DNA of 64,000 nt from Parietichytrium sp. I65-24A (Eukaryota > Sar > Bigyra > Thraustochytrida > Thraustochytriidae), in NCBI GenBank assembly GCA_012862575.1, contig BLSF01000047.1, positions 125,853 through 189,852 of the forward strand. Direction: 5' to 3'. The notes beneath the pieces were generated by a model. That model was given only the letters and a program-made list of their open reading frames with translations. It was not told where the DNA came from and did not search any database. Shown one piece after another: positions 7,401-61,984 of this stretch (within the stretch, counting starts at the first letter, position 1; each line of letters begins with the position of its first letter). Both the position numbers and the translations under genes were made by a program.

Positions 7401-7641
7401 TGCACGACATGTACCCGATCAGCTGCGCAATGGTCTCCTCCTGCTTGAGGTACTCCAGGAGCCTCTCGTTCATGCCCTTGGCCTCCTGAATCGTAGTGTC
7501 CTCGTCTAGGATGTCCTCCACGCTGAAGCTCTTCTTGTCCAGAATGTCGTCGATCGCCGAAGCCGTCTCGAAGAACACGTCGCCTGTGCCCCAGAAGGAA
7601 CCTGAACCCAGGCCCTCCATGCCTCCGCCTGAGAACATCAT
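4483..7641 (-). CDS. SAPS-domain regulatory subunit of protein phosphatase 6 (SIT4-associated type)
   Basis: Regulatory subunit that would bind the PP6/Sit4 catalytic subunit. The 1052-aa frame starts at ATG 7641; the open frame extends 17 codons further only to a GTG. An alternative ATG directly follows the first. The N-terminus (FWGTGDVFFETASAIDDILD, then VEDILDEDTTIQEAK and LLEYLKQEE) matches the SAPS start. About 150 residues on come the block KFPFVACELLCCNITSV and the ML-rich helices before KHIDSYSIMCCF, which are the strongest SAPS matches. The SAPS region occupies roughly residues 10-600. The C-terminal third is acidic and low complexity, with several runs of Asp encoded by GAT/GAC repeats (near 4770-4900 on the window), ending EEEWEPDFGDT. 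No intron is needed. It converges on GET3. Family assignment is strong; partner is inferred. Confidence 0.88.
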   Translation of the reverse strand: MMFSGGGMEGLGSGSFWGTGDVFFETASAIDDILDKKSFSVEDILDEDTTIQEAKGMNERLLEYLKQEETIAQLIGYMSCTSVEQYKQLRAESKTRQEAMAAAKDKQQQEEEEERAQSGNGAGASGLQKLSALESEESAHAAEAAKAAFLIADEDDEGAGLAEEDIMEERAAKFPFVACELLCCNITSVIEPLVNSAALLGKFFAVLEQDAPLDSRLSGYFVKVLTVLLRRAPEKMLWFSMYRNVAIAEESRSEECGEIGWLLPLFLKHIDSYSIMCCFKAFLTAAAEEVGSLDEGEDDDDNSFTAYGAQAGKLSEPAGDLDGRVDGEEEKRSALMRRPRAVWLGGCGAALAVLKALASSGNSDSHTNAADLLSDMIHRAAMARLSLQGGEKTVEKASAADEGAQTQQSLPVFCGFVLKSSGEGASAETAMIESGCEWTLPLCEELLAVALFGSELQASKAPDSPPEDECEADTISRVVERGSAAIASLQVLTHLVSAFALDRWSEPADPRNRLTSAERHSQVPPELEIILSRIPDLVECLETERHVELFSVSESRAKSSLGIHRLKIVELFCTLIHTKYPEVVESIADCEGNPLGVCLDLFFNFEWNNCLHSLLERTLQFILLGGVSEESMGFGSSSSSSSNGEDDDDEDEDAAEESSFFDQVNMQSSGATDSASSLSISTGDSAERATQGKYNRKVRQRQEEIAREQQLANSSLSPLHKALFGQCDIVMRLVKGYQENKRCLSETEVYWKALEDKEQPTPRDGSLRANGQKGYIGHCHRIVNTIALVSATQMNERLRSTASSEASESGLLDDSKTESGTPAVFPVGTWSALESTESNQEWISLLQNEIAEINSIEQCVLGGARPRSFSSPASEPMDNDMDDFGGNIVLQGSRGDSDFLKNDFDLPSGFRNITYDDDDDDDDDDEDYNFFASDNTGTPGFAKSGVDDDDDDDDDHDDDEGQGDEFDELAAASVSSEQDNDLSQAFGNKVNLDATFKPPSDSAVTQADDDFFDPFADDTPSTQSAAEPPQAPANSAIKSADEEEWEPDFGDT

Positions 7642-7977
7642 GCTACGATACTTGGCCGACCAACTGCTTTTGGGTTGAAAGTAGAGCTGCACGCCGCGAG
7701 CTGAGCTTTGGTCCTTGGCTGAAGTATCTTTGATCTTTGATATCGCCTACACCGCAGGGCGGGACAAAATGAATAGATTGTTGTGGATGGGGATGGGGGG
7801 GGGGAAATGGGCGAACGAGAATCTCTGTGGTTTGACAATGTTTGACACGAGAAAGAGAGAAAGGTGTGATTGTTAGTTGGAACAAGAAGCAAAGGAACAA
7901 ATGTGCAAAGACAAAGGACCCGAGGAGCACTGTGTGAATTGAATGTTTTTTGTCCTCTATCCCACTCTCTCATCCGC

Positions 7978-15452: not shown

Positions 15453-18400
15453 TCAAATAACAAGCTTGGAGGTTTTGCTTCTTCTCACCTGGGAGATGCC
15501 GCGCTGAAGAGAGTCCCTGCGATGCTCTAGTTGCGTTGCCTTGTCTGAGAGGATGTTATGACCAAGAGGCACATGTCCTCGAGCTGGACTTGAGAGCCTG
15601 ACGCCTTCCTCTGGCCGGGAAACCCTGCTCGTAGTTTGTTTGTCTTTCTCGGACTTTGCATCTGACTTGTCCTCGGATGGCTTTGAATTTGGAGACACCT
15701 TGGTTTTGCTGGCCTTTTCTTTCTTGGTGTTCTTGGTCTCAGAAGTGGCAGCTCCATCTCCCTTGCTGTTACTAGAGGAGTCTGGGGTCTTGGCTGCGCT
15801 CCCCTTCTCCTGCAAGGCCGAGTCCTGGATTCCATGGAATATCTCAAACCTCATCTGGAGGGACACGCGCTCGTCTTCAGTTAGCTGATACTTGCTCGTC
15901 GCTGCAAGTTTGACGATCTGCTTCATTGCCTCTGGGTAGTCGAGCAATACCTCGTCTAAATCCTCTTGCTCAAGGCGCAGCAGACTGCAGTGGAATATGG
16001 CTCGAACGGACGCTGTCCGCCTGCCACCTACCAGCAAAGACACTTCACCAAAATACGCCCCATCACTCAGCGTCGTGTACACCTCGCTAGCGTCCGCGTT
16101 GCAAACTTCGACAAGCCCTCTCCGAAGGAAGAACATGCACTTGCCTACCTCTCCTTGCCGAATGACAAAGTCGAGAGGGGCGCAAACCTCCGAGGTCATT
16201 GCGAGAATAAGCTTGCATATAAAAGACTCGTCCTGTCCGCGAAAAAATGGAACCTTCTCAACGGTTTCGCGATTCAAGAAGAGGACTACCTCTCGGCGCA
16301 ACGCTGGACTTAAGTCTTCCAAGATCGCATCTTCGCTGAATGGAAACGATTTGAGATTCTTCCAGCAGTGTGTGTAGTAAGCTTTTATCCGGTGCTGCAA
16401 TTCAGGTGGCAAAGATTGGTGAGTCATGTACTCGCGAACAAACTCCATTCGCTCCTTGAACACCGTCTGTGTCGAGTCTACTGACGCGATGATGTGTGCC
16501 ATATTACCGACAAAGTACGCGAACATACTACACGAGATGAGCATCGCCACGATAACAAAAGCGACCTCGGAGGTATTTCGGGGCAAGATATCGCCATAAC
16601 CGACAGTGGTCATGGTCGTGATGGACCAGTATAGGCTCACTACATATCTATCAAGCGTTGTGCCTTCTTGTCGAATTCCGTACGCGTCACTCCAAGTATC
16701 GTTCTGGTCCGGATCGAGATCAGAAATAAGAAAGAACAAGCAAGCAAGGAAGTGAATGGTAAGTACACCAACGATAATGGATGAGAAGAGCCGAAGCATC
16801 CCGGGCTTCAATCGCTCACTCCAGTACTTCCAGTACCTCATCAGCCCAACCAAACGCAGCAACCTAAAGAGCTTGAGCAGACGGATGAGTTTGATAACTC
16901 TCGTTGCAAGTCCATCGTAGCTCACAGCCAATGCGATTTTATCGAAAGGGATAATGGAAAGTAGATCAACTACCAGCCAAGTTGTGACGTACTTGTACAC
17001 GATCATCCTCCTGTTCATAATGATCAGATTCATATTTTGATTTCGGCTGTAGTAGCCAGTGACGAAATTCAAAGCGATGTCCATTGCAAAATAGATGTCG
17101 TAAAACTGCTCAAAAGCCGCCCACCAACCGTACGGCGCGACACTGAAAGCTATTGAGAATGGAACTGTGAAACAGTACCATAATAACATGAACAATACAC
17201 CCAAGTTCCACTTTGCTTTGAATGTGCTTTCTGGGTGAAGCACAGGAAAATTGTTGAGGATGGTATGCAATAACCCCTTCCTCCTCTTCTTTCGACGACC
17301 TTCTAGGCCTTGCCCGTCTGGCTGAATCGAGGCCTTTCGGCCTTTTGCATTCACAGCCTGCAATCGCGAGCTTGAAATTCGGCTGGGGTCTTCGCAGTTT
17401 GCCTCCACGCTTGGCTTTGGCGAGTCCGAAGGCGACTTTGCATTCGCTTCTCCGGCCGCCTCATTTACTGGCGGAGGTTCTTTGGAGGAGATTCTGTCAA
17501 ATCCGCTTTGACTAGTTGTGCTGTTGGTCTCGCTTAAAACACTCTCTTGAATGGCAGCGAACTGATTTCTGCTCTCGTTTTTCGCTGAATTATCCTCATC
17601 ATCGCTATCTTCCGTCACTATCATCGAGTACCCGCTATCAATTCGAAGTTTCAAGCGATTGATATTTGATGGCTTGTACTTGTTCTTCTTGCCTTTTCCG
17701 TTCAAGGAGCTGAGGCTCGAAGGAATTACCTTCCTGCTCTTAGGCAACTGCTCGGTCTTGAGCAAAGACTGCGATCCGTCGCTCCCTCGGCGTATCATTG
17801 GCGGCGGAGTAAAGTTAAGGGCTTGGCCCAGTGCCATACCATGGACAGACTTCCGTCTTGCTCCACTGCCATTGCTCGCTCCCATAGCGAGTATCGCGTC
17901 TCTGTCCGTTCCTGGCTCCAGTGAAGGTCGTCGCCGCCGACCCGTTAAAATATCCAAATCGCGTGAAGTCCCCTCCTTGAATGACATCGAACGGCTAAAT
18001 ATTGGCAGCTTCCTTCTTGCAGCCTGCGATTGAGTCGGGCTTCTAGGCGGTAGAAGAGTGGTCTTGGCGAGCACCGGAGACTCCTTTGGTGTTGGGGCAA
18101 CTGTTTTTGCGTTGCCGATGCAGTTGTGGGAAATCTGAAATCCTGACATTGCCGACTTAGTTTTCTCAAAACGCTGCAGCGCGAGCTCGTGCTCGCCGAC
18201 CAGAATTCGATATGCTGCCATGAGACTAACGAGCTGCTCTTTATGGCAGCATTCTGGCTCGCATACTTCGCTTTCTCGTGTACGAATGGAGAGCCCACTG
18301 ACTTGGGGTCCACAATCGCTGCTCTCCTTTGTGCTTGAATTTCTTTCGGACTCTTTATTGCTCGAGACAACTTCGGTTTCGCTGAACCGTTTTGTGCTGC

Positions 18401-18698
18401 GGCGATTGTCCAACCCGGAATCCGCCGCACCGCTCTGCTCGTTCGCGGATTCCAAATGCTCTTTGCTGAGCTCGCGTAATATCTCTGCCTCCGCGCTGAC
18501 TTTCTGCTCCACGCTCTCACTCAAAGCGGCCTCCGTGGCCGCGGCGCCATCTTGACAAGTGTCTTCCGTCTTTGTCCCGGCGCCATCGGTTTCCCCGCTC
18601 TGTAACTGCCCAATTTCCGCCCTGGATCCCGTGCCTGTTTCTTCTTTGTGCACTGTTTTGCTCTCGCTTTCGCCTTCAACCCCAAGACCTTGCGTCAT
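15453..18698 (-). CDS. Cyclic-nucleotide-gated / HCN-EAG-type potassium channel
   Basis: 1081 aa from ATG 18698 (the open frame continues upstream only to a TTG). The first about 470 residues are hydrophilic, Ser/Glu-rich and unrecognised. S1 starts near residue 496 (LGVLFMLLWYCFTVPFSIAF). S4 near 595-615 carries regularly spaced arginines and lysines (RVIKLIRLLKLFRLLR), so voltage sensing is likely. The pore has the K+ filter TTVGYGD near 697-703. A C-linker follows, and a cyclic-nucleotide-binding domain at about 805-920 contains a good phosphate-binding cassette (FGEVSLLVGGRRTASVRA). The C-tail is Lys/Ser-rich. K+ selectivity and ligand-binding competence are read from motifs; which nucleotide binds is unknown. 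No introns are needed. Confidence 0.95.
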   Translation of the reverse strand: MTQGLGVEGESESKTVHKEETGTGSRAEIGQLQSGETDGAGTKTEDTCQDGAAATEAALSESVEQKVSAEAEILRELSKEHLESANEQSGAADSGLDNRRSTKRFSETEVVSSNKESERNSSTKESSDCGPQVSGLSIRTRESEVCEPECCHKEQLVSLMAAYRILVGEHELALQRFEKTKSAMSGFQISHNCIGNAKTVAPTPKESPVLAKTTLLPPRSPTQSQAARRKLPIFSRSMSFKEGTSRDLDILTGRRRRPSLEPGTDRDAILAMGASNGSGARRKSVHGMALGQALNFTPPPMIRRGSDGSQSLLKTEQLPKSRKVIPSSLSSLNGKGKKNKYKPSNINRLKLRIDSGYSMIVTEDSDDEDNSAKNESRNQFAAIQESVLSETNSTTSQSGFDRISSKEPPPVNEAAGEANAKSPSDSPKPSVEANCEDPSRISSSRLQAVNAKGRKASIQPDGQGLEGRRKKRRKGLLHTILNNFPVLHPESTFKAKWNLGVLFMLLWYCFTVPFSIAFSVAPYGWWAAFEQFYDIYFAMDIALNFVTGYYSRNQNMNLIIMNRRMIVYKYVTTWLVVDLLSIIPFDKIALAVSYDGLATRVIKLIRLLKLFRLLRLVGLMRYWKYWSERLKPGMLRLFSSIIVGVLTIHFLACLFFLISDLDPDQNDTWSDAYGIRQEGTTLDRYVVSLYWSITTMTTVGYGDILPRNTSEVAFVIVAMLISCSMFAYFVGNMAHIIASVDSTQTVFKERMEFVREYMTHQSLPPELQHRIKAYYTHCWKNLKSFPFSEDAILEDLSPALRREVVLFLNRETVEKVPFFRGQDESFICKLILAMTSEVCAPLDFVIRQGEVGKCMFFLRRGLVEVCNADASEVYTTLSDGAYFGEVSLLVGGRRTASVRAIFHCSLLRLEQEDLDEVLLDYPEAMKQIVKLAATSKYQLTEDERVSLQMRFEIFHGIQDSALQEKGSAAKTPDSSSNSKGDGAATSETKNTKKEKASKTKVSPNSKPSEDKSDAKSEKDKQTTSRVSRPEEGVRLSSPARGHVPLGHNILSDKATQLEHRRDSLQRGISQVRRSKTSKLVI

Positions 18699-20880
18699 TC
18701 TCGGTGCTGTGTTCTGCGCACACTGCTCTGTGCGACCGCTCAGCGAGCCGGTGACATCTAGAACGTCTGCTCTAAGGGGAATCTCGCGGTCAATCCACCT
18801 GTCTGTCGCGCAGGCGCAGAGTACAAAGTCCACGTCCACCGCTGGCCAAGACCTCAATCTCCACCTCCACCGGCACCGAGAACCAGAATTAAGAGTTCAC
18901 ACTTGACAATTCACTATTCACTAGTCACAATTCACAGAGATCACAAGACGACGTGTCCAACCTCGCTCGCGACGGAACCGCAACACCGAAAGACGAAGAA
19001 CGAAGAACGAAGAACGAAGAACGAAGAACGAAGAACCCACGCACGCACTATTGCTCCACGAACGCCTCTCACTCTCCTCTTCTATCCGCTTCCCTCTTCT
19101 CCTCTCTCTGTCTCTCTTTGTCTCTCTCTCTCTCCTCCTTCTGCTCCTTCTGCTCCTTACCTCCAACTCGCAAAACTTGCGAATAGTGTTGTGACTGTGA
19201 ATGAAATTCATTGCTCGCAAACGCAGCCGCTTATCTAGCCGGTAGTGATGCCCCGTAGTTCTATCTATGCGAGGGGTACCACTCGCGTAAGATTACTAGA
19301 AGGGTAGCTACAGGGGGTCGTGCTGTGGGTGAGTAGGAGTGGTTAGGGGCGTGCTGGGAGGACCTCAACGTTCTTCAGGAGGGCGGGTGTAGAAGTTGGT
19401 TAGGGTTTGGGTAGCGGCAAATAAGGAGATGTAAAACGGCGTTGGCTGAGTTGGCTGGATGAATTCTGTTCTGAATTCTGAATTCTGAAATTCTGAAATC
19501 TGATTCTGATGATGGCCACTCTCGACGCAACAACGCCCTTCACGCCCTCGCTACTCAACGGTGGCGGTGTTTGGCAAGTCAGCCATACGCGTTCGAATTG
19601 CACGCATCCAACTCGCTCTTGGCCTACTCTCTCCAGCAAAAGTTCAAAATTCTGATCGCTGAGACTGACACACTGAGGCAGTTAGATTCTGAGATTGTGG
19701 CACTTGAAGTCTAATGGTTGATCCTCCTCGATGCCTCTTCCTCCCCTCTGCTATCCTCTGCTCTGCAAGACCTTGAACGATTGGCAGCGGTGCTAAGTTC
19801 TCGCGACGCGCACTACCGGTACTTTTCCCCTTCACGTACTGAGGTGTACTGGGCTGGGCGCTGGTACTGAGTACCCAGAAGCTCCCACTTGCTCGTTCAT
19901 TCATAAATTGCGTCCTTCCTCAATCTGAATGATTGTGATTGTGATTATGATTGTTCCAACTGACCAATTGATGCCATCCTGGCCCTTGCTCCCTGCTTGC
20001 TCTGCGGAATCTGTTTTGATTTTTTGGGTTTTGAGATGCAGCTGTTCCTCTTGCGACACATGCGACTTTCTTGAGAGTTCAATCTGAATTTTGAAACCCC
20101 ACTCGGCGCCTCAGTCTCACAGCTGGATTGCAGGTGCGTATATGTAAAGGTGCAATTTCGCAATTTCAGAATCAGTACTCATACTCAGAAAATTCAGAAT
20201 CAGAATTTACAGTTAGTTGCTCAGGTTTGCGATCTCCCTGACTTTTAGTATAGGGAGACATGGGGTAGAGCACGAAGATGCGTCTTTTGATTTGAAGCAG
20301 AAAGCCGCCGAAAGCTATGTAACAGGTGGGGCATTTGGATTCTAGCGGTGGCTTTCAAACGCGTCGCCCAATGACCATCGCTCGAACCACCTTCTCTGAG
20401 AGGTTGCTGACCGTGACTAGGCACGAGTCTTGAAAGCAGCCGCAGACTCGGGGATCGGACCCGAGCTTTTCAACAGTACGTCACAATTAGCCAACAGCAA
20501 GAATAAAATACTGCAGACACCAAGTCAACTCATCTGTAGAACGTAGACCTCTTTCTGGGGCGGACTCGTCAAAAACCAACGGTCATATTCGCGAACAATA
20601 AATGATTCTTTCAGCCCTGCAGAACAGAGCAGAACAATGCGGCGAGCGGCGCACTGGTAGTGGGTAGCGCTATGGTGACAGTTCTATGGTGTCCAATACA
20701 GTCTGCTAGCGCGTGTAGGGAATCTCTAACTTTCACTTTGGCTCTGTTCCCACTGTGTCACATAATCATACATAACCCACATAACCCACAAATATGCGAG
20801 ATCATGATGGGCAAGATGGACCCAGATGCGCGAGAGAGGGCGAGATTGTCGCTGAGCAAGTGGGGCAAGAAAGAGGAATC
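18699..20880. other. Head-to-head spacer, CNG channel / ABM-domain gene
   Basis: 2.2 kb with no supported gene. Contents: a 7-bp repeat (18994-19035), a CT-rich tract (19070-19150), gaattctgaattctg words (19455-19507), GTAC-containing words (19815-19875), ttcagaatcag words (20165-20210) and a perfect 6-bp hairpin at 20447-20465. Confidence 0.5.
18994..19035. repeat. 7-bp tandem repeat (cgaagaa) x6
   Basis: Six exact copies, 296 bp upstream of the channel ATG (18698, minus strand). Confidence 0.9.
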
Positions 20881-21710: not shown

Positions 21711-23267
21711 CTACGATGCCTCTCGGCGGGCATCGAGAGCAGCTTGTAGCTCCTCGCGAAGACGAACGGGATGACCGCGGCCATTCGTTTTTCTCATTGC
21801 ATGACCAAAGAAAAAATCAAACAGCTTGTTTTTACCCGCAAAGTATGCCGCCAAGTTTTTCTTTCCTTTGCTATTCTTCTCCAGCTCGCTGATGGCATCG
21901 AAGCAAATCTTGGCCAGTTCAGCACGGCTGGTAATCTGGCCCCAGTCCCGCTCTGTAACTATATCTTGCACAGTAGAGACCTCCTTGGCGCCTGCACTCA
22001 GCTGGCCCAACGCAACCTCGAGCACCATTTTACCCGTCCGAGTCGAAATTTCGCCGTCTTGTTCAAGTTTTGCAATTGCCGCGATAAAGCTCGGTGGCAC
22101 GCTCTCCGCGAGGTTTAGGTTTAATGGCCGGAGCATACCTATCAGCACGTTGGTAATCCAGTTCGCGACATGATGCGAAGGAATAGAAGCGTCCAACGCT
22201 TCGAGTTCAGTCGCAGCATGTTTAAAGTACGCAAGACCGCCCTCCTCGCCAAAAAGGACGAGGGCTGCGTCTTCGTTCAGATTATAGGGCGGGAGCATCA
22301 GTTTGCCAAGGACCACATCCGGCAAGTCAGGCAAGGAACTCCTCAGGGCCTCCACCCGCTCTTCCTCAACCACGAGCGGTGGCAGGTCGGGTTCGGGGAA
22401 AAAGCGATAATCTGTGGCGGACTCTTTCTTTCTCATTGGTGAGGTTTCGCCGGTCTGTGCGTCAAATGATCGTGTCTCATGCTGGATAGCTTCTCTAAAG
22501 TTGCCCGAGCCATACAAGGCTTCCAGCCGAGCTTGCTCATGCTCGATAGCTCTTTCGACGTTGCGAATGGAGTTGAGGTTTTTAACCTCAACACGGTGCG
22601 AGTCCACCTGATCGGAGTGGATGGATACATTTACATCGAATCTCAGGGACCCATCTTGCATGTTCCCATCGCAAGTACCAATAGTCTCGAGCAGAGTGCG
22701 AATGGTAGCACAAAATGCTCCTCCTTCTAGTGCGCTTTCAACGTCTGGCTCCGTGACAATCTCCATGAGTCCAGTCCCAGCGCGGTTGAGGTCCACCAGG
22801 TTCTCGTTTGAAGGCCCGCTCAAGCTGCGTCCAGTGTCCTGCTCCAACTGAATGCGTGTAATGCGCACACATTTTTTTGCGGGCTCTCCGCTCTTGTCCA
22901 TTTTCGCTGCTAGCTCCTTCTTCTGCTTGCTGGCGTATCGCACCTCCAGAGAGCCCCCGGTTATGATGGGCCACCTCTGCTGCGTTATCTGAAACCCCAT
23001 GGGCGAATCCCCGTAGAAATAGTGCTTGCGCTCGAAAATCGACGTGCTGTTCACCGCGCCTCCCAGCGCGATACCTGTCCTCACAGCCTGGTCCACGCAT
23101 TCTTCGTTCAGCCGCGGCAGAGTTCCCGGGACACCCGCATCGAACAGGGCCACCTGGCCATTGGCCGCGGACAGAGCGAAGGTGCTGCTGGCTCCGGAGA
23201 ACAGTTTGCTCTTCGCAAGTATTCGCGCGTGAACCTCGAAGCCTACACGCAGTCGCCACGCCGACAT
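21711..23267 (-). CDS. GATB: Aspartyl/glutamyl-tRNA(Asn/Gln) amidotransferase subunit B
   Basis: GatB recognises misacylated Glu-tRNA(Gln) and works with GatA and GatC in organelles to form Gln-tRNA(Gln). The 518-aa frame starts at ATG 23267, immediately before WRLRVGFEVHARI, the canonical GatB start; the open frame extends 11 codons further only to a GTG and is closed by a TGA five codons above it. Visible motifs are KLFSGASSTF, the KHYFYGDSPMGFQITQ block, GQ-type LEQDTGRSL, NLVDLNRAGTGLMEIVTEPD and VEVKNLNSIRNVERAIEHE. The C-terminal YqeY/tail domain (near 380-515) includes TGKMVLEVAL. No N-terminal targeting peptide is visible, although the enzyme is normally mitochondrial. No GatA or GatC lies nearby. 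Confidence 0.95.
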   Translation of the reverse strand: MSAWRLRVGFEVHARILAKSKLFSGASSTFALSAANGQVALFDAGVPGTLPRLNEECVDQAVRTGIALGGAVNSTSIFERKHYFYGDSPMGFQITQQRWPIITGGSLEVRYASKQKKELAAKMDKSGEPAKKCVRITRIQLEQDTGRSLSGPSNENLVDLNRAGTGLMEIVTEPDVESALEGGAFCATIRTLLETIGTCDGNMQDGSLRFDVNVSIHSDQVDSHRVEVKNLNSIRNVERAIEHEQARLEALYGSGNFREAIQHETRSFDAQTGETSPMRKKESATDYRFFPEPDLPPLVVEEERVEALRSSLPDLPDVVLGKLMLPPYNLNEDAALVLFGEEGGLAYFKHAATELEALDASIPSHHVANWITNVLIGMLRPLNLNLAESVPPSFIAAIAKLEQDGEISTRTGKMVLEVALGQLSAGAKEVSTVQDIVTERDWGQITSRAELAKICFDAISELEKNSKGKKNLAAYFAGKNKLFDFFFGHAMRKTNGRGHPVRLREELQAALDARREAS

Positions 23268-23313
23268 GTCGCCGTCGTACGCCTCTCTCACCGTGTACAC
23301 GCTTTGTTCTCAC

Positions 23314-23397: not shown

Positions 23398-24343
23398 GAA
23401 GTTTGCCACTGCGAGTACATGTACGTGCACTCTAGCTACTAGAGCCAGCTGCTGCCACAAGGCCTACCAACAAGTTTGCGGTACTCTTCTGATCTGCATT
23501 TGCCACAACACTTGGTGTCAATGTAGTCAATGTGGTCAATGTGTTGTCAATGTAAATGTGCACATTCACAGTATTCAAAATGCATGTGTTCATGAATGCA
23601 ACTCATTGAACAAAGCATGTCGATGGAAATCAATGCAAACGAAATGAAGAGAAGCAGCGTTGGACCCAGCAAAGAGAAGGTTTGCGGCGTCAAGTCAATA
23701 TTTTGGTCCGCCGCGATCTCTGGCCGGTTGAGTAAGACGGTATATCCTCAAGATCGGGTATCGGGATTCGATTGACAGTGAATTAATTATTGAACTTGTC
23801 TGCCGCCTACCCTTGCAACACCTTTGCACGAAACAAAGCAACAAGCAAACAAAAAATCGAAACTCTTATCGCGACGACGCTTGCCTTCGCCAAGTGGAAT
23901 GCTTGCAAGTTCCCGATATCCTTCGCTTCGCTATCTTCGCTACGATGGACACTTCCCTCTCCGGCCCAATCGAGGGCACGCTCACCTAATCAATCAAGTT
24001 CAAGCCTCAGAGGCTCGTTCGACTCGTTCGCTTGGCAACAGGTACAGAAGAATAGGTTACCGGTAATTACTTCGTGGTCACGGTCGTGGTCATGCTCATG
24101 ATTGTCATGATGATGCTAAACCAGTATCTTGGAAATCTTGGATCCGAAAAACGCAAGCAAAGCCTTTGTGAACTTCCACGCATACTTATCATACTTGACC
24201 CAGAGTGAACATGTGTGAGCTGCGAGCAGGCAGCGCAGTAGTTTCGCAGAGCCAGCGTCGAAAGAGGAACCTCGAAAGCCTTGGAGCGTCCGCGCAGCGA
24301 GCCGAGAAAGCACGGTGAGCGGAGCGCGTCGAGGAGAGAGAAA

Positions 24344-26263
24344 ATGTTCTTGCGCACACTTGCACAGAGGAGGCTGGCCGGCGCGGCTGCGCTGGGGTGC
24401 GTAACGGCAACGGTCGCTGCTGCTGCGAGCTCTCTCCCAAGTTCAAGCTCGTCTCAGGCACAAAGTCAGGAGGTGAAGCAAATCGTGAGCCCGAGTAAGA
24501 GTGCGAATGCGGGTGCGGATGATGGGAAGGACTGGGACGCCAAAGTGGACTTCCTCGTGGTTGGCGCGGGGTCCTCGGGCTGCGTAGTGGCTTCGCGACT
24601 GGCCAGGTCGTTCCCGGCGAGCAGGACCCTTCTCGTTGAGGCCGGTGATACGGATAACCTGGAGGAGATTCAGAATGCCGTGGACTACTTTGGAAAGTCC
24701 GAAAAGGTCTTTGGATCTGATAGAGACTGGTCATATTACGCGGAAGGACAGGCCGAGCTAAATGGCCGCGCCATCTACTGGCCGAGGGGCAAAGTAGTCG
24801 GCGGCTGCAGCTCGTTCAACACCATGGTGTTCTTGCGCGGAGACTCTAAAGACTTTGACCGTTGGGCTGAGATCTCTGGTTTTCCCGAGTGGGGGTACAG
24901 TGGCATGCTGCCTTTCTTCAAACGGGTCGAAACGCACCCCGGAGCAAAGTCTGTCCACGGGAAAGATGGCCCAGTCACTGTGGCGCCGCTCTCTGACAAT
25001 TCTCACGTCCCAGGTGGTGCACAGCACTTGGTCACGACCAAATTCATTCAAGCAGCTGAAGACCTCGGCGAGGCGCGTAACGATGACTTTGCTGCTGGCG
25101 GCAATATTGGCGTCGGCGTCAATGACGTGAACGCCAAAGCCGGCCGCCGATGCAACGCTGCATCCTACCTTAAGATGGTTGGCGCTTATCCAACCGACGT
25201 TTCGGCGGTGTCCACGAATCCGCCTGACGCGTTGCACGTTTGGCTCTGCTCGCGAATAACCAGGTTGATATTTGACGAGAGCAAGCGCGTGATTGGGGTT
25301 GAGCTCAAGCTAGACCCTCGGGCCGATGATCTGAGCAAGCCGGAGAGCCCGGAGTCTACGTCTCGCCGATTCCTTGGGGCGGAAATTCAGGCTCCTCCGG
25401 GAAGAGACACCATTCGAGTTCGTGTGGAAAAGGAGGTCGTGCTCTCATGCGGGGCGGTGGATACGCCGAGGCTCATGATGCTCTCCGGGATCGGTCCGGC
25501 TGACCACCTTCGGTCTGTGAATGTCCCGGTGATCGCGGACTTGCCTGGCGTGGGATCTAATTTGAAAGACCACATGCACGTCCCAATCTGCTTTCGAGTG
25601 CCTGGGGGCGTCAAGCCGCACAGCCACTCGAACATTTGCGAGGGGACCCTCTTCACTTTCCTCGATGAGATCCCCAACGAGGATCCATGGTACCGGTCAA
25701 ACTTGCAAGTCCACTGTGGGACGCTTTTCTTTGAGCCTGATGGTTTCAGCCCGCTCGGGGAAGGTTTTACCCTCACTCCTTCATTGATCCACCCAAGGTC
25801 TATCGGTTCCTTGAGGCTCGTCTCGCCAGATCCAGAAGACCGGCCAGTGATTAAGGCAAATTACTTGACCGACCCCTACGACATTAGTGTTCTCGTGCGA
25901 GGTGTGGAGTTTACTCGAAAGCTTGGAAAGCGCATGCTTGAGCGCCTTGGAGGCGGAGAAGAGCACTTTCCTGGCCCGAAAGTGTCCAGCGAATCTCAGA
26001 TTGAAGATTATGTTCGGAATTTTGTGGGATCCATGTACCATCCAGCGTGTTCGGCTCGATTTGGCGCAGATGACGACCCGACGGCGGTCCTCGACCGCAA
26101 GCTCAGAGTGCGAGGAGGTGTGGAAGGACTACGGGTGGTCGATGCCTCCGTCATGCCAGAAATTATCGGCGCGAATACAAATGCGACTTGCCTGGCTCTT
26201 GGCGAAAAGGGTGCACAGCTAATCATCGATGACTATATCATGCAGAGCGTTTTGGCCCGCTGA
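24344..26263 (+). CDS. GMC-family FAD oxidoreductase (choline/alcohol dehydrogenase type)
   Basis: 639 aa from ATG 24344 (the open frame reaches upstream only to a TTG). The FAD-binding motif VVGAGSSGCVVASRLA lies near residue 72, the first GMC signature PRGKVVGGCSSFNTMVFLRG near 146, and the second GMC signature GAVDTPRLMMLSGIGP in the middle. The catalytic pair is present: His in SMYHPACSARFG (about 565) and Asn in GANTNATC (about 610). The first about 60 residues are Arg/Ala/Ser-rich with an Ala-rich hydrophobic patch, like an organelle-targeting or signal-anchor sequence. The family oxidises alcohols or choline with FAD; the substrate cannot be read from sequence. The fatty-acid photodecarboxylase branch of the same fold was considered but could not be tested by eye. 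Converges on SDHAF2. Confidence 0.9.
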   Translation: MFLRTLAQRRLAGAAALGCVTATVAAAASSLPSSSSSQAQSQEVKQIVSPSKSANAGADDGKDWDAKVDFLVVGAGSSGCVVASRLARSFPASRTLLVEAGDTDNLEEIQNAVDYFGKSEKVFGSDRDWSYYAEGQAELNGRAIYWPRGKVVGGCSSFNTMVFLRGDSKDFDRWAEISGFPEWGYSGMLPFFKRVETHPGAKSVHGKDGPVTVAPLSDNSHVPGGAQHLVTTKFIQAAEDLGEARNDDFAAGGNIGVGVNDVNAKAGRRCNAASYLKMVGAYPTDVSAVSTNPPDALHVWLCSRITRLIFDESKRVIGVELKLDPRADDLSKPESPESTSRRFLGAEIQAPPGRDTIRVRVEKEVVLSCGAVDTPRLMMLSGIGPADHLRSVNVPVIADLPGVGSNLKDHMHVPICFRVPGGVKPHSHSNICEGTLFTFLDEIPNEDPWYRSNLQVHCGTLFFEPDGFSPLGEGFTLTPSLIHPRSIGSLRLVSPDPEDRPVIKANYLTDPYDISVLVRGVEFTRKLGKRMLERLGGGEEHFPGPKVSSESQIEDYVRNFVGSMYHPACSARFGADDDPTAVLDRKLRVRGGVEGLRVVDASVMPEIIGANTNATCLALGEKGAQLIIDDYIMQSVLAR

Positions 26264-30375: not shown

Positions 30376-32229
30376 CTACTGCCGATGAGCCATTGGATCG
30401 TCAAAGTGCACTTTTTCCCTCTGGTATTTGTCAATGTCCTCCTCTGTGAGGCCCATTGCCCTGGCTGCGGCACTCACTGGCTCGCGCAACCTCTCCCGCG
30501 GTTTGCCTGAGGCCGTCCCGAAAGTTCTCCTCGGCGACTTTGAGCGAGAACGATCCCTTCTTCTCCGCTTCTTCTTGTCTGATTTGGAACGCTTGGATCG
30601 AACCTTGTCTCTACCCCGCTTGTGGTCACGATCGCTATGCCGCCGGGACGACGACTTTTTGTGCTTTCTCTTCCTATGCTTGCCAGACGACATTGAGCTC
30701 CTGCTACTGTCTGACCCCTCGCTGTCCGACTGGTGGGATCGCTCCAAGTCGTCTGCTTTTGAGTGCTTCTTATCAGCTCCGGCAAGCTCGCTTTGCGTGG
30801 CGCTTTGATCTATCGCCTCGTTGCTATTTCCGCCCTTCTCATGTGACGCTGCCTTCTCGACCTTGCCAAACTTCTGCGACGCAATTTTAGCTCGCCGACC
30901 AGCCTCGCCAGTGCAGTACGAATTTCGCGTTGTCTGAAAGCAGCAGGCAAACCCCCACCGCATGCTTTCTCTGTCAAAGTAAGAGCCCCATACACTTTCA
31001 TGATTCAGCTCCATGACGTCCTCCTCATACTTGGACCTTGGAATCGCTCCGTTGGGGTCTCGAAGTATGCGCCCGTCGGGAGTGTATTCCACAAAGTTGG
31101 TCTGAACCCCTTCAAGCAACGATCTGTCCGGCCGCTTTTGAGCATACTCCTCGCCACCGTAGCGATCGTGCATTTCTTTCCTCCGCTGCTCCTTGAGCTT
31201 TTCCATTCGCTCCTCGTACTGCTTCTTTGCGAGAAGGACCTGCGTTGGGTTGGCTTGCAGATGGGCTTCGGTCTCGCCTTGCCTGTGCGCCTCCCACGCG
31301 AAGACCTGCGCTCGAGCCATCTCGAGCGCATCGCCAGTACTTTTGACGTGATTATCACCTGCATAGTCTGCATCGGAGTTGTCCAGCTCCGGATTTGGGT
31401 TTGCGCGCATGGAACGAGTTTTCGGGTCGTAGTATGCGGACTCCAAATCAAGATTTCTTAAATATTTGACCGTGTCCTCGCGAATACGAAGATTCGGGAT
31501 TGTCGCCTTCACCTTGTTCCCTACCTTAAACACCTGCTCAGTAGATTCGTCTTGTTTCACCCCCAGGACATCGTCTTCTTGATCGGAGTCGGATTCAGAG
31601 TCGGAGCTGGACGCTTCGTTTTCGTCAAGCCCTGCTTCTTCTGCGCGTTTTCGCTTCCGCTCCTTCTTTCGCCGCAGCTTCTCATCTCTCTCGCGGAGAA
31701 CTTGCTTCCGTTTCTCCTCTTCCGCCTTGTTGTGGAGTTTGACCATTTTGACGTGCTCGGACTCATCATAGCCATTCCACCTGTCTCGCGCAGCGTCGTA
31801 GGACATGTCGATACGGTCTTGAATGAGCTCGTCAGCAGCCAAGTCTTTATTCGTTTTCCAGGCACCAACTTTGCGGGGGCGCTCCATGCAAAACTTTTCT
31901 GTGTGCGTAGTCGCACCGCAATTTTTACACGCGCCTTTTTGAAACCTTTTCTTGTTTTCAGTGCCTGGTTGAATGGTGTCTTTTCCTCTCTTATACCACT
32001 GGTTGAGAGACGTGCCCTTTTCCTTCTTGTCGTCGCTCAGTTTCTGATGCTTGAGACCTTCGCCTTCGTCCTGCTTTAAATACCACGGCGCCTTGCTCAT
32101 AAACTCCGGGATGTGCGGATTGATCATGTTTCCCTGATTGTCCACCGCGGGAAGTGCGTTACCAGCCTTCCGAGCATCTTCGAGAGCCTGCTTCTGGCGC
32201 CGCTCTTCTCTTGTCATTCGCTCCGTCAT
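30376..32229 (-). CDS. SLU7: Pre-mRNA splicing factor SLU7
   Basis: Second-step splicing factor that helps position the 3' splice site. 617 aa from ATG 32229 (the open frame starts upstream only at TTG). After the basic N-terminus come the hallmark [15 protein letters not shown] (about 45-60) and the CCHC zinc knuckle [19 protein letters not shown] (about 115-135), followed by the conserved [14 protein letters not shown] and [12 protein letters not shown]. Further on lie [29 protein letters not shown] and [13 protein letters not shown], all SLU7 signatures. The C-terminus is rich in Arg/Ser/Lys (RS-like, about 530-600), as in splicing factors. Nuclear; no intron is needed. The family is unmistakable. 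Confidence 0.96.
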   Translation of the reverse strand: [617 protein letters not shown]

Positions 32230-32915
32230 CTTGCCTGCGTGTATCTTTTTGTCCCCGCGCTTCTGCGCTGCGACTCCCGCGCGTCGCACTTGCACGCGCC
32301 CTTTTCTGCGCCACCCACGCACCTGAGCACAAGAGCACAAGAGCGCTAGTCCAACTCTCCGACCGCTTTGGCTCGCTCAACTTGCAGCGTCTCGCAGGGC
32401 CCGGGGATCGAACAAAGTCCAAGCCGTGCGGCAGGTAGGTCACCGAACGGCACGCGAGGAATCTATGTGGCTGGCGTCAGTCTCCACTGTGGCAAGGCGC
32501 GGAGACACCCTGCCTCAGCATTCAAGAGAGCAGAAAAACAAGAAAAAGAAACCAAAACCAACACAAGAGGTACTCGTACAACTCGTACTCACAGTCACCA
32601 ATGCTTTAGGTACTGTGACTAGGACTCACACAGTGCTGGCAAATGCTGGCAAATGGCAAGTGGAAAATGCTGGCAACATTTCCATGTGTCCATCCACCCA
32701 CGCATGTTCGTATTTCAGTCAAGTTGATAAGAGAACCAAGGGAATACTTTGATGCTGCAGTCGATTGATCGATGGGCACACAACTTTGGATGTGGGATGC
32801 CTTTGTGTCTTTTCCTTTAAATTGCCATTTACTTTTTACACTGATGTTTGTGAATATAATGTTTGTGTGAGAAATACATGAAGGAACGTTCATGCGATGC
32901 AAAAACCGTTTACTT
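32230..32915. other. Spacer between SLU7 start and VWA-gene 3' end
   Basis: No gene. It contains an imperfect aatgctggca repeat (32636-32682) and a ctcacagtc/gtactgtgac word cluster (32585-32635). Confidence 0.5.
32636..32682. repeat. Imperfect tandem repeat (aaatgctggc) x3-4
   Basis: Three close copies of aatgctggc separated by drifted units, about 400 bp upstream of the SLU7 ATG. Confidence 0.65.
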
Positions 32916-36164: not shown

Positions 36165-36471
36165 AGGCGAGCCATTCGCGGCGGACGGCAAGCCAGTGAG
36201 AGCGCAGCCCCTACACACCCTACACCCGTCGGCACTCTTGGCGCGGGCCAGACGACCACCACGGGCGGCCAGACAGCCAACGCAGCAGCGCAGATAGTAG
36301 AAAAAGCAGAGAGTGGACAGTGGACAGTGGAGAGCGATCCCATCAGCCTGCCACTCGGGTAAGATTGCCCGAACGTGAGGGGTTTCTTTCTTTCTTTCTT
36401 AATCTCTCTTTGTTTTCCTTTCTTGCTCTCCCGGGCGGGGCCGCTCGTAGTGAAGCGAGTGAGACGGAGCC

Positions 36472-39400
36472 ATGAGTGCAAAAAGACGGTCGAAAGGCGG
36501 CGCTGTGGTGTACAGCGAGGAGCACGAGATTGACAAAGAGCTCAGACGAGAGCTCAAGGCCCAACGCCGACCACGAGAGGAGCCTCTCATTGAAAAGATT
36601 CTTGCGCGAAGAAATTCAGGAGGGGTCTCGGAGTACCTGGTGAAATGGAGGGGCAAATCTTATTTGCACGTCGACTGGATCAGCGAAGCGCTGATTTTAG
36701 AAGATGTGGACGGAAATCGCAAGCTGAAAGCTTTTGCCAAGGCACAAGAGGAGAAAGGCCCTTTGCCGAACGATAGCAGGCAAGTTCGTCGTCGAAAGCT
36801 GGGCGCAGACGATCTGGGCCAGTACTTTGACCCTTCCTACGTTGAGGTAGAGCGCATTGTGGACGCGTCACACGCAGAACATGAGAAAGCAAAGCTTTCG
36901 GCGCCTGCGCCGGATGCTAAGAATAGCAAACCGTGGACCCGCGAAGCTCAGCAACTTTTAGCCCAGCTCATTGCCCACCGGTTCAATCGGTCGCTTTTGT
37001 CGGTTTATTTCATGGACATGGTTGATGAAGAGCGCGATGGAGCGCCAGGGTACTATAAGATAATCTCCGAGCCGATGAGTTTCAATCTCGTACGACAGCG
37101 CCTTGTAGACTCTCATTATGCATCTTTGGAAGACTTTGCACGCGAGGTTCGCCTGATTTTTGAGAATTGCCGGACGTACAACCCAAACCCAGACGCACAT
37201 GTACGATTCTGCGGAGAAAAGCTGAGCAAACTCTTTGAAAAAAAGTACGAAGGCTTACTAGCTTGGAAGCAGAAGCGCGAGGCTTCCCCCCCGCAGGACA
37301 CACGTCGCTTTCTTGTGAAATGGAAGGGACTGTCTTATGCGGATATGAGCTGGGAAAACGAATCCGATATTCTCGACGATAGCGCCATCGCCGCCTACTA
37401 CAGGCGGTCGAGGCTGCCCACTCGTACAGCAGCCAAGGCGGGCAATCAGGACACAAAGAGCTCAGAGCGCCAAGAGGACGGGGTAGATTCTTCGGGGAAT
37501 GCGGCCGCAATGCAAGAGAGCGCAGGCAATCAAAATCGGCCATTTATTAAATATACTACATCGCCGGCTTACAAGAATGGTCTGCAGTTGCGCTCTTACC
37601 AGTTGGAAGGACTGAATTGGTTGGCTTTCAATCATGCAAATAACCGTGGTTCGATCCTTGCTGACGAAATGGGCCTCGGAAAGACGTGCCAGACCGTGTC
37701 CTTTGTGAACCATTTGCATCAGCAAGGGTACCTGAAAACCAAGCCCTGCATGGTTGTTGCCCCACTATCCACCCTTGGACACTGGAAGAACGAATTCGAC
37801 CGATGGAGTGACTTGAACGTTATTTTATATCACGATCAGGGCAACCGGCTCATGACCGGCTCGCAAAGTCGAAAATTGATTCGTGAAACAGAGTTTTACT
37901 ACTGGACAGAATCGAAGAAAGGCAAGCGTCGCAATGTTCCAGGGCTCTACAAGTTCCAGGTACTGATCACATCATATGAGTCATTAGTGTCAGACGCATC
38001 GGAGCTGGGTTCCATTCCATTTGCAGCTGTCATCGTGGACGAAGGGCATCGACTCAAGTCGAAGAAGGGAAAGCTGGCATCAAGTTTCCGGGACTTTTTA
38101 AAAACGGACACGCGAGTAATTTTGACAGGCACGCCGCTTCAGAACGACATCGAAGAGCTCTTCAACTTGTTACATTTCATTGAGCCCAAGGAGTTTTCCG
38201 ACAGAGATGGTTTTCTTCGAGACTTTGGTGATCTACAAAATGCCGAACAAGTCCAGGCATTACAAAATCGTGTCAAGCCATTTATGCTGCGCCGACTCAA
38301 AGAGCATGTTGAGAAAGACATCCCTGCAAAGGAGGAAACTGTGATAGACGTCGAGCTCACAACTCTGCAGAAAAAGTATTATCGTGCAATCTTTGAGCGT
38401 AACCGCGAATTTCTCTCTGGGGGAGCCCACTCGACGTCGCGGGCCGCGCTTCCGCCACAACTAACGAATATTGAAATGGAGCTTCGCAAGTGCTGCAACC
38501 ACCCATTTCTAATCAATGGCGTTGAGGAGCGTGAGAGCGTTGGCGCGGAGGGGTCCCCCGAAGCTTTGCGAAGCGTGATCCAGGCTAGCGGGAAAATGGT
38601 GTTGTTGGATAAGCTGTTAGCAAAACTCTGGAACGAGAAGAGAAAAGTGCTTATTTTCTCCCAATTCAAAATGATGCTGGATATTATCGAAGACTACTGC
38701 CACCACCCAGACCGATCATATCCCATGGAAAGGATAGATGGAAACACTTCTGGAAGTGCAAGGCAGAAAGCGATTGATCGTTATTGTGATCCGCGCGGCA
38801 AGTCTTTCGTTTTCTTGCTCTCCACTAGGGCTGGGGGCGTGGGGATTAATTTGACAGCAGCGAACACTGTCATCATATTTGACAGTGATTGGAATCCGCA
38901 GAACGATCTGCAAGCCATGGCTCGATGCCATCGAATTGGGCAGAAAAACAGCGTCTCCGTGTACCGCTTTGTGACCAAGAATACCTATGAGTCCCATCTG
39001 TTTGACCGCGCCGCTCGGAAGGTAAGTAGGAGAAAAAAGCCATTCTTCTCTGACTGATTTGATTTCTAGTTTGCGAAGAATAAAACTGACGAGCCAATGA
39101 TCTCTGTTGTGTGCTACGTTGTTCCGCGTCATTGGCCGCGCTAAATTATCCCATCCCCCATTGCAGCTTGGGTTGGAGCAGGCAGTTCTTGGGAAGCATG
39201 GGTCCGCAAATACCACGGATGCTGGACTTGCGCCATCTAAGGAAGAGATTGAAGGGCTGCTCCGCTTTGGGGCTTATAAACTAATGGAAACCGATGACGA
39301 ATCCGCGGAGAAATCACGTCAATACAGCGAAGCAAATATTGATGATTTACTTGCGTCGTCAAGTAGACGGGTGAATTGGGACAAGCAAGAGGGAAGCGGG

Positions 39401-41095
39401 GACGCCCCGTCAGGAGTACCCTCCTCGTTTTCCTTTTCCAAGGCGAGCTTTGTCGCCGCTGGTACTGACGAAGAGATCGATGTAGCTGATCCAAGCTTTT
39501 GGACCAAGGTGCTTGGTGCGGACCCCAGAAGCACGATGCTATCGCGGCTCTCAGACGGGTCTGCGTACGAGACAGAGGAGACCAAAAAGAAATTCTTCGA
39601 TGAGCTCCGTGCTGCAGGGAATCAGGTGATCCAGGAAAAGTTGAGCGGAGTCGTCAAGCCTGAGTTTGAGGAAGCTGTCTTGCACTGTCTGGAGCAAATT
39701 TCAAACATGAAGCGGACGTTCTCAGACCAAGAGCTCGCTGCGGCGAGTGCATTCCTCAAACAGGTCGAGCGCCCTTCGAGACGCCATTACGCACAAGCCG
39801 ATGTAATTCGGTTTTATGATGAGGAGGCGATTGTTGGCCTTACGGAGAGCAATGCTGCGAGCTATAAACCGGACGTAAAGAAATCAGAGAGAGATGCAAC
39901 CTTTTCCGGCGATTCTGAGGAGGAGGACGGAACATATCGCAGTCGAGACGAAAAGCGAAAGAAGAAGCGCACAGTTGAAATCGACGGCAAGGTCATGGAC
40001 ATGTGCCAAATTCAAAACTCTTGGATCGAGCCAGACGATCTGATGAAGGCAGTTGAGAGCGCAGGAGGCTACGAGAGTGTTGTACAAGAGCGAAACTGGA
40101 CTCAAGTCCGCACGAATCTTGCTCTCGAAGCGTCGAGTAGTGTGAATTTCTCCATTCATCGAGTGTTCAAAAAGTACTTTCCATCCAGCTGCCTATTGAC
40201 GGGATCAGCAGACGTCGAGCAGAGGAGGACGACTAAAAAGACGAAAAGCTCCAAGTCAGGCAGTTCTCGCCATAAGAAGCGTGGTTCACAAAGCGACGAA
40301 GAGGACGACGACGACGACGAAGAAGAAGAAGACAACGATAGCGACGGAGAAAACGATGATGAAGAGGAGGAGCATGATGTCGATGACAGCGTTGATGAGG
40401 GTGTCGGCGAGGAGGAAAGCGAGGATGGGACCTCCGACAAGGCCAGAAGACGGCCAGCTCCGCGAAGAAAAGCCTCCCCAAAGGCCAAAACAGTGGTCAA
40501 AAAGAGTGTTAATTCATCGACCCCGAAGCGAAGCGCCATATCTCGCCCGAAAATCGAGTGCCCGATCGTACGATTAGACCCGAAGATTTATGTCTCCAAA
40601 ACAGCAAATAATGAGCCGTGGTGCAGATATTGCGGGGCGGTTGAGTCCTCCGGATTCAGTCGTGGGCCATGGGGATCCAAAATGTTGTGCGTGGTACACT
40701 ATGTTGAGTGGCATCAGAAGCACGTTTTGGATCTGAGCCCTTGGGCGGAGGAGGCGCCCGTGCAGCCAATCAATCCCGATCTCAATACACAGTTCAAGTA
40801 CTTGGCATACAAAAAGGAGCGCGAAGAGAAAATGAAGGAGCGCGCAGAAGCTGTGAAGCCTGAATCGGCTGATGAGCTCGAAGAAGACCTCGAAGAAGAG
40901 GTAAGATCGAATGGTCGGCCACGCCGTCGCGCAGCAATTCGAAGTGCTGCGAGAATTCGAGGCACACACAAGGCCGAGCAAACAAAGTCTCTGTCTGGTC
41001 GCAGGACGAGGGACAGCGTTTCGCGGTCGTTGTCAAGACCTGCAAAGCTTGCAAGGCGTGGAAGTACCTCATCAGCCTCGGAAACTTCAGACTAG
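36472..41095 (+). CDS. CHD-type chromatin remodeler with nested bromodomain, ARID-like and GATA-like modules (2 exons)
   Basis: Exons 36472-39021 and 39167-41095 (145-nt intron, GTAAGT...TTGCAG) give 1492 aa. Chromodomain 1 lies at about 37-78 (EYLVKWRGKSYLHVDW). Chromodomain 2 starts at 121-135 (YVEVERIVDA) and resumes at 279-312 (FLVKWKGLSYADMSWE). Between these lies a bromodomain at about 154-268 with YYKIISEPMSFNLV and CRTYNPN (acetyl-lysine Asn237); the WPF shelf is not evident. SNF2 ATPase: DEMGLGKT (398-405), DEGH instead of DEAH, TGTPLQND, then STRAGGVGINLTAAN and HRIGQ. Exon 2 continues the CHD tail (SFSFSKASFVA), an acidic stretch, an ARID-like segment near 1120-1192 (DDLMKAVESAGGYESV), and a CX2CX18CX2H GATA-like finger near 1334-1370. 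Nuclear ATP-dependent nucleosome remodeling is secure; the reader combination is inferred from motifs. Converges on a PH-like gene. Confidence 0.93.
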
Positions 41096-60231: not shown

Positions 60232-61984
60232 TTAAAAGGACCTGCCCCAGAGACACCACTCACGCGCAGGAAGGCCGCAGCCGGTAAAACATGGAGTACC
60301 TTCTGGGAGTGGAGGCTGGGTGAAGGGAATACACAGAGTCTTAGCCGAGCCCGTGAGACTGCGAGTCTCGCCCTTTTCATTCTCTTCGTTGGCTTCTTGT
60401 TGGTCAGCTTTCTTGGTCTGTTCAGCAAGTTTTTTAGTCTCTTCCTTAACCCACTCCTCGGACTCGGTAGTCAAGCTCCATGGCGCAAGGACCAAGTTGC
60501 CCTTGTCCAATGCACGGACAAACTCGTCCCAGGTCCAAGCGATAGTCAAGCGGCCATCGCGCTCAAGACGCGCTTTGGCCAACATGTCGGCTTGAATCTG
60601 TGTGAGGAGACTTGCGAGATACTCTGGCGCCTCGCTCAAAGAGACAGTGCTCTTCTCCATGGTATCTCTGCGCGCAACGACACAGTTGCCCGCAGCGAGG
60701 TCTTTGGGACCCACCTCTATGCGGATTGGCACACCACGTTGCTCCCAGTGATTACACTTCCAGCCTGGGCTTTTGTCGGTACGAAAGTCTGTCTTCGTGC
60801 GGATCCCCTTTGCTTGAAGGGCTGCAAAGATATCATCGACAGACTTTCTCATGCGCTCTGCCTCATCCGCGTCTTGCATCGGGATGGTGATGCCAACAAT
60901 CTGGGTCGGCGCAACGCGAGGTGGGATCACAAGTCCGGTATCATCTCCATGCACCATAATCATGACTCCAATTGACCGTGTGGTAAGTCCCCACGAGTTC
61001 TGGTAAACGAATTCCTTGCCCTTGCCCTCTTTCTCATCCTCAAAGGTAATGTCGAACATTTTAGAAAAATTTTGGCCCAAGGAATGTGAGGTTGCAGCCT
61101 GAATGGCACGTCCAGCTCCGGGAATAAATGCCTCGATGGTCGTTGTAAAGTCGCCTCCTGGAAACTTTTCCTTGGCTGACTTCCTGCCTTTGATCACTGG
61201 GACCGCAAGGAGCTCTTCATACACACGGGCGTAGAGATCCAGAATATCGAGCACTTCCTTGTCTGCATCTTCTTTGTTCGCAAATGCAGTATGACCTTCT
61301 TGCCAAAGAAACTCTCTCGTCCGCAGAAATGGAGTTGGGTTTTTGAACTCCCAGCGAACGACATTGGTCCACTGATTGAGCCGCAAAGGAAGATCGCGGT
61401 GGCTGCGAATCCAGTTTGAGAAAGCTGGATACATGATGGTTTCGGAGGTCGGGCGGATTGCAATAGGTTGCTCCAGCTCAGAGTCCCCGGAGCGGGTGAC
61501 CCAAGCTACCTCTGGGGCAAAGTCCTCGATATGGTCCTTCTCCTTGTTCAAGTTGGATTGGGAAACAAACATTGGAAAATAGCATGGCTCCACTCCAAGC
61601 AGCTTGATTTCGCTGTCGAAAAAGCCCTGGATTTGCTCCCAGATGCGGTAAGAGGTGGGACGCAGAATGTAGCATCCTGATACATTGTAGTAGTCGATCA
61701 GCTCTGCTTTGGTGATAACCTCGGCGTACCACTGTCCGAAGTTCTCATTTCTCGTCCTGGTGGCAAGAATCAACCAACGTCGCAATGGCAAAAGCACGAC
61801 ACCCATCCGTCAGTAATCCATCCAGCCCGCCGCGAAAACGAAAACGAACACGTCGACCTCTGACGCACCGGAGACGCCTCTGCACGCACTTTGTCCGTCC
61901 TCCTTCGCTCAGACTTCAAACTTCACAGAGGAAACCCAAAACTTACACACTAATCTTTAAGCCGGTTTGCTTTCCTTTACCCAT
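60232..61984 (-). CDS. Prolyl-tRNA synthetase, archaeal/eukaryotic type (2 exons)
   Basis: Charges tRNA(Pro) with proline. Exon 1 is only 38 nt (61984-61947) and encodes MGKGKQTGLKISV; a 190-nt intron (GTAAGT...CACCAG) joins it to exon 2 (61756-60232), giving 520 aa and the junction ISVTRNENFGQWY, which matches the family N-terminus. An in-frame ATG at 61806 lies inside the intron and would give a wrong start. Class II motifs are clear: VSGCYILRPTSYRIWE, PMFVSQSNLNKEKDHIEDFA, motif 2 VVRWEFKNPTPFLRTREFLW with QEGHTAF, SLGQNFSKMF and GLTTRSIGVMIMVHGD. The C-terminal Zn-type domain ends with the typical PAREWCLWGRSF. It is the cytosolic type and lacks the bacterial editing insert; the organellar enzyme is not here. 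Confidence 0.95.

Follow-up and report, generated by a model that had tools for sequence, protein, structure and literature searches.

The question raised by the locus described here is what kind of chromatin remodeler results when a bromodomain is placed inside one of the two chromodomains that precede a CHD motor. The stretch analyzed, referred to as the window, comprises 64,000 nucleotides of contig BLSF01000047.1 (positions 125,853 to 189,852) from the thraustochytrid Parietichytrium sp. I65-24A. One gene on its forward strand, at positions 36472-41095, encodes a CHD-type chromatin remodeler of 1492 residues in two exons (frame 36472-39021 plus 39167-41095), and an initial annotation made from the letters of the sequence had located a bromodomain within its chromodomain 2. 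The product very probably belongs to the CHD family, with a bromodomain nested in its second chromodomain; it likely slides or spaces nucleosomes, and its chromodomain gate would sense acetyl-lysine.

Pfam Chromo matches exon 1 in two stretches (67.6 bits together), and in the PDB this exon matches human CHD4 best (440.8 bits), followed by human CHD1 (422.5 bits). The protein has the hallmark of CHD remodelers, a pair of tandem chromodomains ahead of an SNF2/Helicase_C ATPase, and no domain of the predicted motor is missing. Opening chromodomain 2 of the window protein, the strand FDPSYVEVERIVDAS matches the beginning of the corresponding domain of human CHD1 (chain 9ear, up to residue 400) with 16.8 bits, and the remainder of the domain, RRFLVKWKGLSY..SWE, aligns about 10 residues beyond that match in the CHD1 chain; in the window protein the gap between them is 144 residues, in agreement with the ~145 first estimated.

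A protein search for relatives returned 6269 matches from 7988 scored candidates, 120 of which are listed (domain content is that of precomputed Pfam); among these 120, 19 carry PF00439 together with PF00385 and PF00176 (counted by eye) and 101 are without Bromodomain. P0001, the closest among the matches listed (62% identity over 96%), presents the whole arrangement, including Chromo, Bromodomain, SNF2, ARID (35.2 bits) and a sub-threshold GATA match (18.0 versus 26.8). In P0002 both ARID (19.9) and GATA (15.5 versus 26.8) are sub-threshold, and P0003 and P0004, whose sequences stop shortly past the linker that follows the ATPase, have no ARID or GATA match. The order chromo, bromo, chromo, SNF2 occurs in P0001, P0002, P0003, P0004 and P0006. 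An N-terminal Tudor domain stands ahead of chromodomain 1 in P0003 and P0004, an extra reader module unmatched in the window protein. Searches of viral contigs and genome contigs for related loci found no relative.

The insertion point was compared in a multiple alignment of the window protein and nine insert-bearing relatives picked from the 120 listed matches (P0001-P0004, P0006, P0011, P0016, P0022 and P0096), with bird CHD6 (P0050) and an oomycete protein (P0007) as controls without a bromodomain. In all 10 insert-bearing rows the insert begins past the same strand and stops before the same VKW strand, including P0096, which carries the insert yet receives no Pfam bromodomain call; this alignment supports the nesting more strongly than the pairwise comparison with CHD1. 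Because the two alignments place the insert there, the bromodomain is read from the sequence as nested in chromodomain 2, past its first strand and ahead of its second, where the initial annotation had put it.

That the gene model joins a CHD gene to a bromodomain gene by fusion or misassembly, or keeps an insert that is spliced out, is extremely improbable: one 850-codon open frame spans everything concerned, and P0001 (jgi, mmetsp and eukprot sources) and P0002-P0004 show an identical domain order. P0001, found in a transcript collection (MMETSP), retains the bromodomain insert. A gene-model artefact was rejected on this conservation of domain order in relatives. The stop-to-stop frames 36463-39057 and 39101-41095 are joined via one predicted GT-AG intron; among five in-frame GT-AG options, 39022-39166 was chosen because the junction that it gives, FDRAARK/LGLEQAVLG, is carried letter for letter by P0001.

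In a PDB search the isolated insert (128 residues) hits 400 distinct sequences at E <= 0.001, with PBRM1, BRD4 and BAZ2B at the top, and the Asn of its CRTYN motif (residue 237) aligns onto the acetyl-lysine Asn position of BRD4, PBRM1 and BAZ2B, which we take to be the contact with acetyl-lysine. The bromodomain might instead be a passive passenger in an insertion-tolerant loop, neither reading acetyl-lysine nor touching the motor. Scans of the organism's own genome (42.5 Mb, 172 contigs) recovered three other genes with chromodomain and SNF2 matches, C8 (L028), C28 (L029) and C73 (L030), all of which, by eye, have an unusually long stretch at the identical place in chromodomain 2, from strand 1 to the VKW strand, and none of which has a Pfam bromodomain. 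Counted from where strand 1 begins up to LVKW, the window protein has 162 residues, bird CHD6 29 and P0027, which groups with Anopheles CHD7 in the ATPase tree, 154. As these paralogs and P0027 have long stretches there, the strand 1-2 loop would tolerate insertions in this lineage and in P0027, and in this lineage it looks like an insertion hot spot. The passenger explanation, favored by these loops and by the missing Asn in Stentor P0016 and in P0011, is nonetheless unlikely, given that the Asn is kept in 7 of the 10 aligned rows (window, P0001-P0004, P0006 and Paramecium P0022), all 7 with over-threshold Pfam bromodomains. Retention of the nested bromodomain with loss of its Asn in Stentor P0016 and the similar row P0011 suggests a bromodomain with a changed role.

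Several observations weigh against a CHD protein whose gate senses acetyl-lysine through a nested bromodomain. The pairwise CHD1 match of RRFLVKWKGLSY..SWE is insignificant by itself (6.1 bits, independent E-value 18), and a single-sequence AlphaFold2 model of residues 31-360 is poor, with a predicted local distance difference test (pLDDT) score of 37.2, and settles nothing. P0016 and P0011 are without the acetyl-lysine Asn, so acetyl reading would not be universal among the relatives; in P0096 the position is ambiguous. Chromodomain 1 has VKWRGKSY in place of the IKWKGWSH of human CHD1, so that GK replaces GW, the Trp of which is presumably a methyl-lysine cage residue. Because one CHD1 cage Trp is replaced, methyl-lysine reading in the CHD1 manner, which had been attributed to this protein, is doubtful.

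A bromodomain between CHD chromodomains has published precedents. Table 2 of an account from 2014 (PMC4030286) includes an oomycete 'Chromodomain-containing protein (D)', PITG_03401, with the order [Chromo], Bromodomain, PHD, Chromo, [PDZ], SNF2, Helicase C, PHDs. Compared through this published domain list, PITG_03401 resembles the window protein, also a CHD remodeler, in having its bromodomain between the chromodomains and differs in the PHD beside the bromodomain, the occasional PDZ and the C-terminal PHD series, with no ARID or GATA-like finger in the list. A Tetrahymena CHD is likewise stated to hold its bromodomain between two N-terminal chromodomains (PMC7339932, 2020), a likeness in position that is drawn from that published domain statement; Chd1-Tt is listed among Tetrahymena bromodomain proteins (PMC5844071), and Tetrahymena Chd3 and Chd7 were studied by affinity purification and mass spectrometry (PMC6562869). 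The available passages of PMC8638923 contain nothing on a bromodomain-CHD layout.

Since the oomycete and Tetrahymena accounts exist, the class of layout is already known, and the window protein has the same bromodomain position. In view of these precedents, the distinct remodeler type first proposed for it is supported in part only, and a categorically new protein was rejected on the same ground. Among the aligned ciliate rows, Stentor P0016 and Paramecium P0022 differ from the window protein in their PHD-type fingers and in giving no ARID match in the C-terminal part. By its predicted architecture the window protein is placed with the bromodomain-bearing CHDs of oomycetes and ciliates and not with canonical CHD1; it is an ARID-bearing variant of a layout already on record. 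In the texts and incomplete listings searched, no account turned up of a bromodomain nested within chromodomain 2, of the finger shared by relatives or of the version with an ARID; differently worded accounts may have been missed, and earlier comparative work on the chromatin proteins of protists may already report the bromodomain-CHD architecture.

The C-terminal part bears on the same comparison. The linker after the ATPase has no Pfam family match, and its PDB search returned two designed repeat proteins only. The ARID-like segment that had been noticed beyond it scores 23.9 bits when exon 2 is scanned, just under the Pfam cut-off of 24.1, and exceeds that cut-off on an 84-residue piece (27.5 bits) and in the own-genome scan (27.8). 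A profile built from the ARID pieces of the window protein, P0001 and P0002 matches structures of ARID1B, Lid and JARID1B (4e-6 to 7e-6); the top two matches of the single-sequence PDB search were designed proteins and were disregarded. The Pfam match covers positions 23 to 84 of the 89 in the profile and so leaves out the beginning of the domain, and the ARID assignment is supported for a partial domain.

Further downstream lies a putative zinc finger with the spacing C-x2-C-x18-C-x2-H, exactly as annotated initially. The consensus of GATA fingers is CX2C-X17/18-CX2C; here the last ligand is a His, and the window protein has no GATA profile match. Six of nine finger segments match PF00320 at E up to 1 (best 3.1e-5) and two match THAP (best 0.01), and segment scans of the window's own finger gave no Pfam match to either. 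The sole PDB match of the nine-sequence profile up to E 10 is GATA18 (E 0.18); the single sequence has none. The resemblance to GATA is weak, and the finger is named GATA-like with a His as its last ligand.

This finger is conserved as far as Stentor, and in the own genome its one match is the window gene itself. The string WCRYCG, with which it starts, occurs in 8 of the 120 listed matches, all 8 within the 19 bromodomain-bearing ones and 0 among the other 101. It is missing from 11 of the 19, a point against the main reading of the gene; some of these 11 look truncated, and Paramecium P0022 has none. A single-sequence AlphaFold2 model of exon 2 is poor (pLDDT 47.8), and Foldseek with this model found nothing at E <= 0.001 (best E 1.0).

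Canonical CHD1, against which the protein had first been measured, shares with it the tandem chromodomains preceding an SNF2 motor in yeast and human. To our knowledge CHD1 has no bromodomain. Besides the replaced cage Trp, the window protein differs in that exon 2 has no Pfam match to the HTH or SANT-SLIDE region of CHD1 at E up to 1, a level at which a very divergent copy could escape, and none in its first 211 residues at E up to 10. The own-genome C8 matches PF23588 at 22.4 bits, under the cut-off of 27. Identity with canonical CHD1 was rejected, as the CHD1 C-terminal region was not found. As a yardstick CHD1 is not supported either, because the source names of many listed matches are CHD6, CHD7 or CHD8, though the tree leaves the subfamily open. 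Animal CHD6-9 (subfamily III) share with the window protein the tandem chromodomains, an SNF2 motor of ~52-53% identity and a KASF..DPxFW linker; unlike it, they have a strand 1-2 loop without bromodomain (the 29 residues to LVKW of bird CHD6), no WCRYCG among the listed rows and no ARID in precomputed Pfam. In all, the observation made in the initial annotation is confirmed and its interpretation partly supported.

Whether bromodomain-bearing CHDs arose once was addressed with an ATPase tree (LG+G4) of 51 rows: 45 of the 120 listed matches, the window protein, the three paralogs and two own-genome SNF2 outgroup rows. P0005 was excluded for a duplicated motor stretch. The window protein and P0001-P0004 form a five-row clade with support 100/100. 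The backbone is without resolution, which leaves membership in CHD6-9 undecided, with animal CHD6, CHD7 and CHD8 among the 120 listed matches. On this tree the bromodomain label (19 matches plus the window, 20 rows) needs 4 changes, and P0006 pairs with the non-bromodomain P0013 (84/80). A second test also left out P0015 (N-terminus missing) and placed P0096 with the insert-bearing rows; there the label requires three changes, and uniting all 21 rows in a single clade costs 21 log units, with p = 0.073 in the approximately unbiased test (p-AU). The label changes and this cost favor more than one origin, the window group and the ciliate group having captured bromodomains independently. The shared insertion point, the finger common to rows of the window and Stentor types and a single clade that is not rejected once P0006 is left out (p-AU 0.336) speak against that course of events, which seems somewhat doubtful. 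From these sequences, one origin of the bromodomain-bearing CHDs is neither shown nor excluded, which also counts against the main reading.

Features of the CHD-type gene (positions counted from the first base of the window)
Feature	Residues	Position	Strand	Evidence or content
Exon 1	1-850	36472..39021	+	Both chromodomains, nested bromodomain, entire ATPase; open frame, Pfam
Chromodomain 1	40-88	36589..36735 (contig C47:162441-162587)	+	Pfam Chromo 38.5 bits
Chromodomain 2 first strand, FDPSYVEVERIVDAS	119-133	36826..36870	+	Aligned to human CHD1 chromodomain 2 start, relatives, controls
Bromodomain-carrying insert	~150-265	36919..37266	+	PF00439 2.5e-16; PDB bromodomains PBRM1, BRD4, BAZ2B
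Bromodomain Pfam core	174-239	36991-37188	+	PF00439
Chromodomain 2 remainder	277-312	37300..37407	+	Pfam Chromo, best stretch
SNF2 ATPase lobe	376-679	37597..38508	+	PF00176 4.2e-74
Helicase_C lobe	708-823	38593..38940	+	PF00271 9.6e-25
Predicted intron, 145 bases, GTAAGT...TTGCAG		39022..39166	+	In-frame GT-AG search; junction matches P0001
Exon 2	851-1492 plus stop	39167..41095	+	
Post-ATPase linker with FSKASFVAAGT..DPSFWTK		39167..39796	+	Also in CHD6/7/8 and own-genome CHDs, read from sequences
Partial ARID domain, profile 23-84 of 89		40001..40177	+	Pfam, three-sequence profile (~4e-6), genome scan
GATA-like zinc finger C-x2-C-x18-C-x2-H (WCRYCGA...GPWG..LC..H)		40622..40699	+	17 invariant columns in 9 sequences

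Among the paralogs, C73 (C73:84500-92500) is like the window protein in its two chromodomains, long strand 1-2 loop, SNF2 motor and similar post-ATPase linker, and unlike it in having no bromodomain and a PHD/zf-HC5HC2H C-terminus like that of oomycete CHD type B in PMC4030286. It also has a long pre-ATPase spacer with a PDZ-like stretch (by eye; no Pfam match). The window further contains a SAPS phosphatase-associated protein (4486-7746), GatB amidotransferase (21714-23309), a GMC oxidoreductase (24242-26260), the splicing factor Slu7 (30379-32376) and prolyl-tRNA synthetase (60235-61809), all ordinary neighbors, and, on the reverse strand, a frame of 1147 residues at 15456-18896 with ion-transport and cyclic-nucleotide-binding domains (PF00520, PF00027).

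The two chromodomains of yeast Chd1 lie over its motor and hold the ATPase in check as a gate, and in CHD1 linker DNA is held by SANT-SLIDE. The nested bromodomain of the window protein may bind acetyl-lysine, and such binding would release or reorient the chromodomain gate, because the bromodomain forms part of the pair of domains that serves as the gate in yeast Chd1. Linker DNA could be held by the ARID-like and GATA-like modules, in the role that SANT-SLIDE has in CHD1. The window protein is predicted to tie ATP-driven nucleosome remodeling to acetylated chromatin. A bolder proposal, rather doubtful as a whole, is that one ancient stramenopile/alveolate class of remodelers shares the nested bromodomain and the WCRYCG-GPWG finger, that acetyl-lysine at the gate directly switches the ATPase on, and that ARID plus the GATA-like finger took over DNA anchoring from SANT-SLIDE in the window branch. 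A bromodomain placed physically in the gate would couple a histone mark to remodeling in one polypeptide and open the gating idea to test, and the nested bromodomain together with the WCRYCG finger may serve as a marker set for tracing this remodeler lineage across protists.

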